The notes beneath the pieces are model-generated. The model searched no databases, had not been told where the DNA came from, and saw only the letters and a program-made list of their open reading frames with translations. Shown piece after piece: positions 8,865 through 11,868 of a stretch of 64,000 bases of DNA (positions are counted from its first letter, which is position 1; each line of letters opens with the position of its first letter). Made by a program: the position numbers and the translations under genes. The stretch lies in NCBI RefSeq assembly GCF_001424755.1, contig NZ_LMRF01000004.1, positions 140,557 to 204,556 on the forward strand, in the 5' to 3' direction. This DNA is from Marmoricola sp. Leaf446. Lineage in GTDB: Bacteria; Actinomycetota; Actinomycetes; Propionibacteriales; Nocardioidaceae.

Positions 8865-8881
8865 CCGGGAGTGCGGCCCCC

Positions 8882-8897
8882 GTGAGAGCCCTCTCAC
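8882..8897. promoter_or_regulatory. Operator-like inverted repeat upstream of the Arg-rich peptide gene
   Basis: GTGAGAG and CTCTCAC form a perfect 7-bp inverted repeat with a 2-nt centre, followed by further CTCAC half-sites at about 8903 and 8914. The site lies about 80 bp before the peptide start in a gap without other genes, so it may bind a regulator of this locus. Confidence 0.35.
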
Positions 8898-8976
8898 GCT
8901 GACCTCACCCGCACCTCACGCATCACCGCGAGTGTCTTCCTCGTCAGGGAAACCACCCCCACAGGAAGGCACGACC

Positions 8977-9144
8977 ATGGCACGCTCCACGATCCTCGCC
9001 TCGCTCCAGCCGGCCCGGATGGCGCGCTCGGCGCGCTCGGACAGCTCCGACGACCAGCGCCGCCGCCGGCGTCGGCGCCGTCGGCGGATCATGCGCCGCC
9101 GGCGGCTGCGTCGCCGTGCGGCCCGCAGCCGCAGCACCGACTGA
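8977..9144 (+). CDS. Arginine-rich small peptide (55 residues, 23 Arg)
   Basis: I do not recognise this peptide. The ATG has a strong AGGAAGG ribosome site 7 nt upstream, and codon third positions look like those of neighbouring genes. The N-terminus, MARSTILASLQPARMARSAR, is followed by an acidic-serine patch SDSSDDQ (21-27). After that come ten consecutive arginines (28-37), IM, four arginines, L, three arginines and an ARSRSTD tail. There is no cysteine, no signal peptide and no membrane segment. A 17-bp hairpin follows the gene, then an ABC exporter gene and a kinase gene in the same direction. This layout resembles a peptide precursor ahead of its exporter and modifier. The SDSSDD patch would suit a kinase, but that is inference. 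A nucleic-acid-binding, protamine-like role is the main alternative. Confidence 0.6.
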   Translation: MARSTILASLQPARMARSARSDSSDDQRRRRRRRRRRIMRRRRLRRRAARSRSTD

Positions 9145-9169
9145 CGGCACGGCACCACCGCAGGCACAG

Positions 9170-9210
9170 GTCCGGGCGGGTGGCTCGATCAGGGAGCCAC
9201 CCGCCCGGAC
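9170..9210 (+). terminator. Strong hairpin between the peptide gene and the ABC exporter gene
   Basis: A perfect 17-bp stem (9170-9186 with 9194-9210, GTCCGGGCGGGTGGCTC and its complement) closes a 7-nt loop. It starts 26 nt after the peptide stop and ends 44 nt before the exporter start, with no U-tract. It could be a partial terminator or a 3' stabiliser, letting the peptide mRNA exceed that of the downstream genes. Confidence 0.75.
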
Positions 9211-9253
9211 GGCCATCACAGCACGCAGCGACGACGCACGGCGAGGACGACAG

Positions 9254-10993
9254 ATGACGACGAGGTGGCAGCGGGCCGGCGCCCTGCTCCGGCCCCAGCA
9301 CGACGAGGCCCCGGTGGTCGAGGAGGCCCCCGGGCTCACCCTCGCCCAGGTCGTACGCCGGTTCTGGCCCGACCTGCGCCCCTACTCCCGCCACCTGCTG
9401 CTGGGCCTGCTGCTGCTGGCCGCCGCCCCGGCGGTGGAGGTGGTCGAGATCCTGCTGTTCCAGCGGCTCGTCGACGACGTCCTGGTGCCCGCCTCCTTCG
9501 AGGCGCTGCCGCTGCTGGTGGCGTTCTACCTCGGCCTGAACCTGCTCAGCGCCGGCGTCTCCGGCGCCGACGACTACCTCTCGACCTGGATCACCCAGCA
9601 CTTCCTGGTGCGGCTGCGCGGCCGCTCCTTCGCGCACGCGCTCGCGCTGCCGCTGCCGCGGCTGGCACAGCGCCGGCTCGGCGACGTGCTGCAGCGACTC
9701 AGCAGCGACATCGCCCAGGTGGAGACCTTCATGGTCGGCCAGCTCAGCGAGGTCGTCGGCACCGTGCTGCGGCTGCTGTTCTTCGTCGGCGCGCTGTTCT
9801 TCCTGCAGTGGGAGCTCGCGCTCGCCTCGCTGGTCGTGGTCCCCGCCTTCTGGTGGGTGTCCTCGCGCTTCGCCCACCTCGTCAAGGACCTCAGCCGGGA
9901 GCGCCGACGTCGGGGCGGGGCGCTCGGCTCGGTCACCGAGGAGAGCCTCGGCAGCGCGGCGCTCGTGCAGACCGCCGGCGCGGAGCGCGAGACCGAGGCG
10001 GCGTACGACCGGCAGAACCGCGCCATCATGGCGGCCGAGCTGGCCTCGAGCCGCGTGCGCGCGGTCTTCCTGCCCGTCGTCGACCTCGTCGAGCTGCTCG
10101 GCGTGCTGCTCGTGGTCGCCATGGGCGTGTGGGCGCTGGAGTCCGAGCGGCTGACGCTGGGCGGCCTGCTCGCCTTCCTCACCCTGCTGGTGCAGTGCTA
10201 CCGCCCCGCCCGCGACCTCGGCGACCTGCTGCCGGAGATGTTTGCGGCCTCGGCCGGCGTCGAGCGCGTCGTCGAGCTGCTCGACGAGCCGGTGCCGCAG
10301 GACCGGCCCGGGGCGACCGCGCTGCCCCGCGGCCCGGGGGCGGTCAGCCTGCGGGGCGTCACCGTGGGCTACCCCGGCGCCGACCGGGCGGTGCTGCGCG
10401 ACCTCGACCTCGACGTCGCCGCGGGCGAGCGGGTCGCGCTCGTCGGGCCGAGCGGCGTCGGCAAGTCGACCCTGGCCTACCTGCTCACCCGCCACCTCGA
10501 GCCCACGGCCGGCCGCGTGCTGCTCGACGGCCACGACCTGGCGGCGCACACGCTCGACTCCGTGCGGGCCTCGGTCTCGATCGTGCTGCAGGAGACCCTG
10601 CTGCTCGACGCCAGCGTGCACGACAACGTCGCCCTCGGCACTCCGGGCGCGTCGAGAGCGGCGGTCCGCGACGCCGTACGACGCGCCGGCGCCGAGGAGT
10701 TCGTGGAGCGCCTGCCCGCGGCGTACGACGCCCGCGTCGGCCAGCGCGGCCGGCTGCTCTCCGGCGGCCAGCGGCAGCGGTTGTGCGTGGCCCGGGCGCT
10801 GCTGCGCGACGCGCCGGTGCTCGTGCTCGACGAGCCCACCACCGGCCTCGACGACGAGGCGGCCGCCCGGTTGCTCGCGCCGCTGTCGGCGGAGCGCGGC
10901 CGGACCGTGCTGGTGCTGACCCACGACCCGCGGGTCCTGGCCCACGTCGACCGGGTGGTCGACCTCGGCGCGCTGCAGCCGGTGCCGGCGTGA
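9254..10993 (+). CDS. ABC exporter, fused membrane and ATPase domains
   Basis: A 579-residue half-transporter of the B/C exporter type. Residues about 35-310 carry six membrane segments of the ABC_membrane fold. Residues about 360-579 are the ATPase, with Walker A GPSGVGKST (398-406), LSGGQ (502-506) and Walker B VLVLDEP ending in Asp526-Glu527. It should act as a dimer in the cytoplasmic membrane. The N-terminal extension is short, with no C39 peptidase domain, so it would not cleave a double-glycine leader. The ATG at 9254 follows GAGGACGACAG. The stop overlaps the GTG of the downstream kinase gene. Upstream lies the Arg-rich peptide gene, its most likely cargo by context. Drug or lipid export is the alternative. 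Confidence 0.85.
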   Translation: MTTRWQRAGALLRPQHDEAPVVEEAPGLTLAQVVRRFWPDLRPYSRHLLLGLLLLAAAPAVEVVEILLFQRLVDDVLVPASFEALPLLVAFYLGLNLLSAGVSGADDYLSTWITQHFLVRLRGRSFAHALALPLPRLAQRRLGDVLQRLSSDIAQVETFMVGQLSEVVGTVLRLLFFVGALFFLQWELALASLVVVPAFWWVSSRFAHLVKDLSRERRRRGGALGSVTEESLGSAALVQTAGAERETEAAYDRQNRAIMAAELASSRVRAVFLPVVDLVELLGVLLVVAMGVWALESERLTLGGLLAFLTLLVQCYRPARDLGDLLPEMFAASAGVERVVELLDEPVPQDRPGATALPRGPGAVSLRGVTVGYPGADRAVLRDLDLDVAAGERVALVGPSGVGKSTLAYLLTRHLEPTAGRVLLDGHDLAAHTLDSVRASVSIVLQETLLLDASVHDNVALGTPGASRAAVRDAVRRAGAEEFVERLPAAYDARVGQRGRLLSGGQRQRLCVARALLRDAPVLVLDEPTTGLDDEAAARLLAPLSAERGRTVLVLTHDPRVLAHVDRVVDLGALQPVPA

Positions 10994-11868
10994 CCGGGCC
11001 CGTCGTGGTCCCGCCCGTCGTGGTCCCGCCCGTCGTGGTCCCGCCCGTCGTGGTCCCGCTCGGCACGGTGCCGCCCGGGGAGCAGGTGCTCCCCGGCCAC
11101 GTCGTGGTGTCGCTGCTCTCGCACGGCCGCCGGATGGACACCTACGACGCCCACGACCTCGACCGCGGCTGCCGCAGCGTGGTCAAGGTGCTGCGCGAGG
11201 ACCGGCGCAACGAGCCGCGCGTGGTCGCGGCGACCCGGCGCGAGGGCGAGGTGCTCGCGACGCTGGCCCACCCCCACCTGGTGCGCTGCTACGAGGTGCA
11301 CGACGAGCCCCCGGCACTGGTCCTGGAGGTCCTCGGCGGGGCGACGCTCGCCGCGCTCGTCGAGGACGAGCCGCTCGGCCTGGCCGACACCGCCGGGCTG
11401 GGGCTGCAGCTGGTCTCGGTGCTGGGCTACCTGCACCGCCACGACTGGCTGCACCTCGACGTCAAGCCGGCCAACGTCGTGGTCGACGCGGGCCGGGTGA
11501 CGCTGATCGACCTCAGCCTGGTCGGCCGGCCGGGGGAGGGGCGGCCGGGGGCCGGCACCCGGGGCTACCTCGCACCCGAGCAGGCCCGCGGCTCCGGCCT
11601 GGGCCCGGCCACCGACGTGTGGGGCCTGGCGGTGACCCTGGTCGAGGCGCTGACCTCCGAGCTGCCGCACGGCGACGAGGCCACCTGGGACTCCCGGAGG
11701 CGGCTGCCGCTGCTGCACCGCCGCGCCCCCCGGCCGCCGCGGCTGCCGGCCGCGCTGGTGCCCGACGACGTGCGCGACCTGCTGCTCACCTGCCTGCGCA
11801 CCGACCCGGCGGCGCGTCCCGGGCTCGACGACGTACGCCGCGTGCTGGAGCCCCACGCGCACGCGTGA
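10990..11868 (+). CDS. Divergent cytosolic Ser/Thr protein kinase
   Basis: A 292-residue protein that is little more than a kinase domain, begun at the GTG overlapping the exporter stop. The N-terminus is a VVVPP repeat (residues about 4-23). Conserved residues are Lys66 in SVVKVL, the helix-C Glu in REGEVLATL, Asp157/Lys159/Asn162 in HLDVKPANVVV, Asp174 in LIDLSL (replacing DFG), and LAPEQ. The glycine-rich loop is hard to find, and HRD is replaced by HLD. All catalytic residues remain, so activity is plausible. There is no membrane segment and no PASTA or sensor domain, unlike the PknL-like kinase at 49.7 kb. Coupling to the exporter suggests it acts on the exporter or on the peptide. Confidence 0.75.
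   Translation: MTGPVVVPPVVVPPVVVPPVVVPLGTVPPGEQVLPGHVVVSLLSHGRRMDTYDAHDLDRGCRSVVKVLREDRRNEPRVVAATRREGEVLATLAHPHLVRCYEVHDEPPALVLEVLGGATLAALVEDEPLGLADTAGLGLQLVSVLGYLHRHDWLHLDVKPANVVVDAGRVTLIDLSLVGRPGEGRPGAGTRGYLAPEQARGSGLGPATDVWGLAVTLVEALTSELPHGDEATWDSRRRLPLLHRRAPRPPRLPAALVPDDVRDLLLTCLRTDPAARPGLDDVRRVLEPHAHA
10999..11058 (+). repeat. Four tandem copies of a 15-bp unit inside the kinase gene
   Basis: CCCGTCGTGGTCCCG is repeated four times without a mismatch at the 5' end of the kinase gene, encoding repeated PVVVP. Perfect identity suggests recent slippage expansion, and copy number may vary between strains. Confidence 0.9.

Follow-up and report, generated by a model that had tools for sequence, protein, structure and literature searches.

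In a 64,000-nucleotide (nt) stretch of the Marmoricola sp. Leaf446 genome (contig NZ_LMRF01000004.1, positions 140,557 to 204,556; hereafter the window), the gene for a small arginine-rich peptide (8977-9144) is followed by a hairpin (9170-9210), the gene for an ATP-binding cassette (ABC) exporter (9254-10993) and that for a Ser/Thr kinase (10990-11868). Judged by its conservation the 55-residue peptide is the product of a real gene, and comparison of sequences indicates that it belongs to a real, conserved and widely varied family which is tied to one exporter family, has a kinase in one branch and, in its closest relatives (type 1 below), shares an operator. The cassette probably serves to make a leader-guided, exported cationic peptide that is phosphorylated by its own PknB-like kinase. 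An earlier sequence-only reading had described the three-gene locus and proposed that the kinase may, by phosphorylating a serine patch, neutralize or activate a cationic peptide which the exporter expels; what it observed holds, and what it proposed is partly supported.

The window peptide counts 23 Arg, 4 Asp and 10 Ser/Thr among its 55 residues and has no Cys; its own ribosome site, AGGAAGG before the ATG, and its SDSSDD patch are as first described. Type-1 peptides follow the pattern MARS-x-I(L/F)-x-x-L-x-P-A, then an acidic Ser patch, an Arg run and an RS/RT tail, the last being short in the window's own species. Among 25 aligned type-1 peptides the patch, written [ST][DN]D, occurs in 22, an Arg run of at least 5 in 24, at least two consecutive R[ST] in 23, and Cys in only 2; the leader is present in 25 of 25 by construction, these peptides having been selected with the L.PA pattern. 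Synonymous changes (1-13) exceed amino-acid changes (0-5) in 12 of 12 close pairs, and over 24 peptides pN/pS (amino-acid-changing relative to synonymous differences) is 0.58 and 0.51 in frame versus 0.82 and 2.48 in the other two frames. Ten representative peptides were tried, with no credible Pfam or NCBIfam family for any of them.

A search with the exporter at E <= 1e-100 over 294 genomes of the family gave 40 places in 37 genomes, 34 at 57-100% identity (type 1, where L035, on a named contig, stands for L009) and six at 47-49% (type 2). A homologous peptide frame lies just upstream of the exporter in 33 of the 34 type-1 loci and a kinase just downstream in 33 of 34, and in 6 of 6 of type 2, so the three genes do form the unit that had been claimed. 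When ribosome site and length alone were used, with no motif, a small upstream frame was found in 31 of the 34 and began with the leader in 30 (L031 was called short in that scan and is complete on reading, the frame of L029, which abuts a contig edge, was identified by eye, and the peptide in genome G029 came from the profile search). A conserved small frame with a conserved N-terminus and patch thus stands beside exporter and kinase homologues, the very point on which the sequence-only reading had staked itself. When a profile built from 25 of the peptides was run against the full sequence of all 294 genomes, it made 40 matches, spread over 36 of them. At an exporter there were 33, of which 25 had built the profile and 8 were independent, and the others are three full copies elsewhere in G183, two at a contig edge in G234, and two weak matches in genomes without an exporter of this type at E 1e-100. 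G183 is the exception in having an exporter with neither partner adjacent: its kinase, 65% identical to that of a close relative, is about 130 kb from the exporter, with none near it, and three identical peptide proteins are encoded at two further places (L142, L143), two of them in tandem. Since copies exist apart from both exporter and kinase, the peptide gene can be separated from them and is more than a leader acting in cis. Further full or partial peptide copies lie at a contig end in G234 (L144). Gene neighbourhoods otherwise differ: over 71 loci, with rough gene calling, no gene besides exporter and kinase is common to all clades, and the widest other neighbour is found in 10, those being close relatives.

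The opinion that no system of this composition had been described needs widening, for the cassette belongs, as a single branch, to a large set in actinobacteria whose members share the leader and differ widely in the core. In the six type-2 loci exporters are 46-49% and kinases 41-45% identical, and the peptides have an M(G/A)F(S/R)AY leader and RGRG before STST, GTGT and TRTR tails. Two type-1 peptides (L100, L109), with a core of RGRG or RHGG and HTGT/TRTR, are intermediate between the types, and their kinases are only 49-55% identical. Exporters at 37-52% identity, from further families of the same order and class, have other low-complexity peptides upstream of them, cores of TG, KS, TR, His-Asp, Pro-Lys or Gly-Tyr having been swapped under a kept leader. 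The core is KSHSKSYSKS in L145, TRTRTRTGKSG in L147 and poly-Arg with TSSGSDTSD in L163, and a kinase is present at all the KS-repeat (L145), TRTR (L147) and T/S-rich (L163, L164) loci. Pro-Lys-rich peptides occur at L148-L151, L166, L169-L171, L174 and L176 (that of L148, Pro/Lys/Arg-rich, reads MSLKKVAVLKPKAPKAPKQHKKPAKKLPPRRRPIAR), Trp-Arg-Cys peptides at L167 and L168, and an Asp/Trp-rich one at L161. Cores rich in His, Asp and Gly (HDHDHGHG), possibly metal-binding, go with the same leader and exporter at L160, L185, L188, L190, L192, L195, L196 and L198-L200, with a kinase in some and not in others, and Gly-Arg-Tyr peptides (RGG/GY-like) precede related exporters, without a kinase, at L173, L207, L209, L211 and L252. 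The leader pattern, drawn up after the first set of loci had been seen, lies upstream at 82 of the 141 exporter loci, among them 37 of the 67 in the fresh set introduced below, versus 21 of 2400 other small frames preceded by a Shine-Dalgarno (SD) site. Upstream of ten kinase-negative first-set loci no such peptide was found, and the exporter relatives L111 and L152-L156, which showed neither a comparable peptide upstream nor a kinase of the family, were set aside. A leader that is kept while the core varies is what is asked of the precursor of a ribosomally synthesized and post-translationally modified peptide, and these peptides have it.

The kinase has the marks of an active enzyme. A Pfam search of its 292 residues returned protein-kinase models only, with no match to a lyase or cyclase domain; K66, E85, H155, D157, N162, D174 and E197 are invariant in 37 of 37 aligned kinases, and the catalytic Lys, helix-C Glu, HxD, Asn, DFG-Asp and APE-Glu expected of an active Ser/Thr kinase are thus in place, with HRD read as HLD (HGD in L162) and DFG mostly as DLS or DLG. 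Among the solved structures listed as matches, PknB, PknA and StkP come closest in profile and PknB in fold; the structure model (predicted local distance difference test, pLDDT, 89) shows a kinase domain, a disordered tail at its N-terminus and no additional helix. An SRPK-type kinase was considered and finds no support in fold or profile, both closest to PknB; the notion of an unusually acidic kinase suited to a poly-Arg partner was also tried, and the net charge of 45 kinases, -12 to +12 and mostly mildly negative, is not decisive. The reported overlap of the kinase with the exporter stop, GTGA with the GTG at 10990, is real as sequence and is not general, and the true start is uncertain, perhaps downstream, because the first 23 or so codons fall partly within four 15-bp tandem repeats in a region not seen in the aligned homologues, most of which align only from about residue 20-40. 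The repeat is probably a young expansion.

The exporter, starting with ATG at 9254, matches ABC_membrane and ABC_tran in Pfam, with three weaker ATPase models over part of it, and, as had been noted, is without a leader-peptidase domain (no C39 match in that search). Its sequence relatives are of MsbA and ABCB types, and the structure model (mean pLDDT 91) has long transmembrane-type helices and a nucleotide-binding part. With MsbA-type and bacteriocin ABC exporters it shares its half size, and MsbA is the best (361 bits) of the best 25 of 198 NCBIfam models; it differs in falling under the cut-off of every one of those 25 (602 bits for MsbA) and in having no C39 peptidase match. At L166 the exporter carries a long C-terminal repeat tail of GYGYAAEGSAAG type.

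The perfect 17-bp hairpin is where it had been reported, with stems at 9170-9186 and 9194-9210, and the stretch 9145-9260 folds 4.1 standard deviations below its shuffles. Perfect stems of at least 11 bp follow the peptide gene in 16 of 28 kinase-positive loci tested, and since two of the three stand-alone peptide copies of G183 have a similar hairpin behind them (by eye), it seems to belong to the peptide gene, of which it is a probable partial terminator. A genome-wide repeat was considered and rejected, its inner 8-bp stem pattern having a single occurrence in the 3.8-Mb genome.

Upstream of the peptide gene, three YTCAY-like units at exactly 11 bp are found at -83 to -141 from the ATG in 30 of 30 type-1 loci checked (of 34), many of them close relatives. 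They score 13-15 of 15, a value that 0 of 100 base shuffles per locus reach; six other periods score lower in 29 of the 30 loci, with a tie in L092. As for the palindrome of Table 1, a GAGRG..CTCT pair is found by strict pattern in 15 of 30 loci. Direct repeats of 11 bp suit OmpR/PhoB or SARP regulators. Some 70-120 nt upstream of the peptide, the type-2 loci L103, L104, L106 and L107 have a different block, first TCCTAGTACCWACGGACATCTGCC-like and further on CCTAGCGTC-like, which is weaker in L105 and L108 and by eye unlike the type-1 operator. In the 3.8-Mb genome the strict operator pattern has 4 exact sites, the reversed-pattern control 0, and three loci have it in common: the window (8893-8919), L263 (3037) and L265 (4061, minus strand). 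The L263 site precedes a signal-peptide-like protein of DPQTRDTTRDTVTR (TRD) repeats and then a kinase 36% identical to that of the window (E 7e-30), a repeat-protein and kinase pair without an exporter at L263 3119-4525 (own genome, C1). Next to the pair are a histidine kinase with a HAMP match in Pfam and a response regulator that by eye is of OmpR type. Operator, T/R/D-rich frame and kinase are kept in 2 further genomes of 24 searched in the genus (L271, L272), and the TRD/DPQTRDTTRDTVTR repeats differ between these near relatives.

How might such a cassette work? An OmpR-type or SARP-type activator would bind the 11-bp direct repeats and turn the peptide gene on, the operator being a conserved sequence and the regulator our supposition. 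The peptide would be made in excess, with the hairpin passing only part of the transcripts on to exporter and kinase. The kinase would recognize the N-terminal leader and phosphorylate Ser/Thr in the acidic patch and in the alternating RS/TR/KS/TG tail, the acceptors likely including that tail as well as SDSSDD. So modified, the peptide would be a zwitterion (by arithmetic, phosphorylation of all seven downstream Ser/Thr would take the window peptide from a net charge of +19 to +5), safer in the cytosol and different outside. The dedicated MsbA-like exporter would expel it by its leader, as we infer because of the strict pairing with peptides that share the leader and vary in the core. Outside, its targets could be the anionic polymers of the envelope, where it would be antimicrobial or bind the wall, a guess within this proposal and one that we hold with some doubt.

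The bond between peptide and kinase is argued from the Ser/Thr (S/T) content of the core. In the first set of 71 loci, 45 of them with a kinase, 28 kinase-positive peptides have an S+T fraction, counted beyond residue 14, of 0.16-0.61 and do not overlap with 17 kinase-negative ones, at 0-0.12; by S+T >= 0.15, cores are S/T-rich in 28 of 29 with a kinase (L162 the exception) and in 0 of 17 without. The 28 are what is left of the 45 after 17 rows were put aside (14 near-copies, L029 at its contig edge, L102 with no called start, and L162), while the 26 kinase-negative loci yielded 17 peptides from 16 of them, L161 and L172 being read by eye; L176 has only about 600 nt downstream. A fresh test was made in another family, in which 85 of 345 genomes have the exporter, at 117 places; 70 were read (the 30 best and 40 hand-chosen over the identity range), 3 of which repeat the first set and 67 are fresh, and the 30 of these 67 with no leader-matching frame, all kinase-negative, were not counted. 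The prediction, fixed beforehand, was that every kinase-positive locus has an S/T-rich core. Kinase-negative peptides were S/T-rich, as predicted, in 0 of 16. The association has p = 1.6e-5 and 6e-4, both of which ignore relatedness.

Several points weigh against the proposal. The prediction failed on its kinase-positive side, where 11 of 21 fresh cores were S/T-rich and 10 of 21 S/T-poor (His-Asp, Gly-rich, Glu-rich), and the kinase therefore does not always face an S/T-rich peptide; at L162, where the peptide sits between exporter and kinase, a Trp-Arg-His peptide with one Ser/Thr in 31 core residues (by eye) has a kinase; and the L185 and L186 peptides are nearly the same, one with a kinase and one without. 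The association rests, moreover, on related loci: the exporter tree has at least 7 kinase-state changes over 55 rows (L165 being scored as kinase-lacking though its contig ends at the exporter), and by our own reading only about three have a readable peptide on both sides. The enzyme resembles PknB, not the RS-specific SRPK kinases, and translation, phosphorylation and export of the peptide are all argued from sequence. The S/T-poor cores and the L185/L186 pair, together with the many kinase-negative relatives that consist of peptide and exporter only, would sit well with a peptide exported unmodified and a kinase whose part is in signalling or in controlling the exporter or a regulator of the operon. 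We nevertheless consider this unlikely, as S/T-rich cores are found in 0 of the 33 pooled kinase-negative peptides and at the second locus in the same genome a Thr-repeat protein goes with such a kinase and no exporter. An S/T-rich core, it appears, implies a kinase, and a kinase also stands beside cores with few Ser/Thr.

Could the peptide instead stay within the cell? An Arg run with an RS tail resembles protamine and SR (serine/arginine-repeat) proteins, and the kinase, with its disordered N-terminal tail and no further helix, might tune a protamine-like binder of nucleic acid or polyphosphate while the exporter moves other cargo; this is very unlikely, the exporter being the constant partner of cores that are unlikely all to be nucleic-acid binders, such as the Asp/Trp-rich one of L161 and the His-Asp-rich one of L160. 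Less credible again is a regulatory leader peptide, ribosome stalling on whose Arg run would control, through the hairpin, expression of exporter and kinase. A small frame with an Arg run, a strong hairpin 25 nt after its stop and before the exporter, and peptide-exporter gaps of 71-128 nt in 23 of 28 loci are what such a device would have, but three full copies in G183 stand apart from exporter and kinase alike, conservation at the N-terminus and in the S/T tails is at the protein level, KS, TG, HD or PK repeats take the place of the Arg run in many relatives, and the Arg codons are common ones in the four loci looked at. The scattered parts in G183 also argue against a cis-acting attenuator, which was rejected on the stand-alone copies and the non-Arg cores, the cis position itself being found in 33 of 34 type-1 loci. 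A lanthipeptide-like route, in which Ser/Thr would be activated by the kinase and then lose the phosphate to a lyase encoded elsewhere, leaving dehydro-residues, has the slightest chance of all: the kinase does match LanL (1.5e-24; 86 bits against a cut-off of 650) and LanKC (5e-7), though PknB better (1.7e-26), and against this stand the lack of a lyase or cyclase match in the kinase protein and of a third gene common across clades, and the scarcity of Cys.

The nearest precedent for this logic is the lasso peptide paeninodin, for which PMC9266682 reports that a dedicated kinase acts on the linear precursor and phosphorylates its C-terminal Ser, a residue conserved in clusters with such a kinase. 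The kinase-tailored lasso peptides (paeninodin with PadeK, pseudomycoidin with PsmK) are like the present case in a small precursor with a dedicated Ser-modifying kinase, and the cassette would work like such a system without being one: no lasso cyclase or protease gene is common to the loci (neighbours were not each searched for lasso domains), many repeat Ser/Thr replace a single C-terminal Ser, and the kinase is a PF00069 Ser/Thr kinase. Lasso-peptide kinases are of another fold. In the class III and IV lanthipeptide synthetases, LanKC and LanL, a Ser/Thr-kinase-like domain acts on precursor Ser/Thr; the window kinase matches both models, well below their cut-offs, and differs in standing alone, with no lyase, no cyclase and no Cys in its peptide. 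Eukaryotic SR proteins and protamine, with SRPK kinases, have RS dipeptide tails beside Arg runs, and the RS repeats here may be likened to them; the differences are a PknB-like kinase and a bacterial system with an exporter. Pro/Lys/Arg-rich relatives look similar to proline-rich and other cationic antimicrobial peptides, a likeness drawn from sequence and set against the lack of a credible family for the ten peptides tried.

It is possible, if short of probable, that the whole amounts to an actinobacterial class of leader-guided, ABC-exported low-complexity peptides (poly-Arg/RS, KS, TR, TG, His-Asp, Gly-Tyr-Arg and Pro-Lys) in one large branch of which a PknB-like kinase is the bacterial counterpart of the SR-protein kinases, phosphorylating RS/TR/KS repeats to give secreted zwitterionic phosphopeptides under envelope-sensing two-component control. 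Were it so, a minimal route of three genes would let bacteria secrete phosphorylated low-complexity peptides akin to the SR proteins and protamines of eukaryotes, a route which peptide-mining rules may miss since the precursor is of low complexity and there is no classical maturation enzyme. It would also offer a testable kinase-substrate pair, an exporter of new specificity that accepts interchangeable cores behind a common leader, and a collection of natural peptides with patterned charge, which might be antimicrobial or bind the wall. A literature search, with subscription papers and preprints outside its reach, gave no description of such a cassette among the matches listed, and within the main text of PMC7794033 neither 'kinase' nor 'arginine' occurs.

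Table 1. Features of the cassette and its upstream region, in window positions
Feature	Positions	Strand	Basis
16-bp palindrome GTGAGAGCCCTCTCAC, overlapping the first operator unit	8882..8897	.	read from sequence
Operator, CTCAC N6 CTCAC N6 CTCAC, exact 11-bp period	8893..8919	+	exact match; conserved in relatives
Ribosome site AGGAAGG of the peptide gene	8963..8969	+	sequence; SD-like sites also precede listed homologues
Poly-Arg peptide gene, 55 residues: leader MARSTILASLQPARMAR, acidic Ser patch SDSSDD, Arg runs, RSRST tail	8977..9144	+	sequence, alignment, profile search
17-bp perfect hairpin, loop of 7, no T run; probable partial terminator of the peptide gene	9170..9210	+	sequence, folding, relatives
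Half-size ABC exporter, 579 residues; Walker A 10445, LSGGQ 10757, Walker B 10817; no C39 peptidase	9254..10993	+	domain matches, sequence
PknB-like Ser/Thr kinase, 292 residues as called; catalytic Lys, HLDVKPAN, DLS, GTRGY, APEQ	10990..11868	+	domain matches, alignment, model
Four copies of a 15-bp repeat coding VVVPP, kinase N-terminus	11000..11059	+	sequence; not seen in aligned homologues

Some lesser observations may be added. The third exact operator site of the genome, at L265, precedes a lipoprotein-like frame, and the fourth, like the one-mismatch sites, is among short tandem repeats or near oppositely oriented genes and may be meaningless. A plasmid-borne cassette was considered and rejected, there being no match to it in 72,556 plasmid records at E 1e-80. 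In a scan of named genomes one close named relative, Nocardioides sp. 1609 (67%), appeared among 48 loci. The genes that follow the cassette in the window resemble rpsO and pnp.

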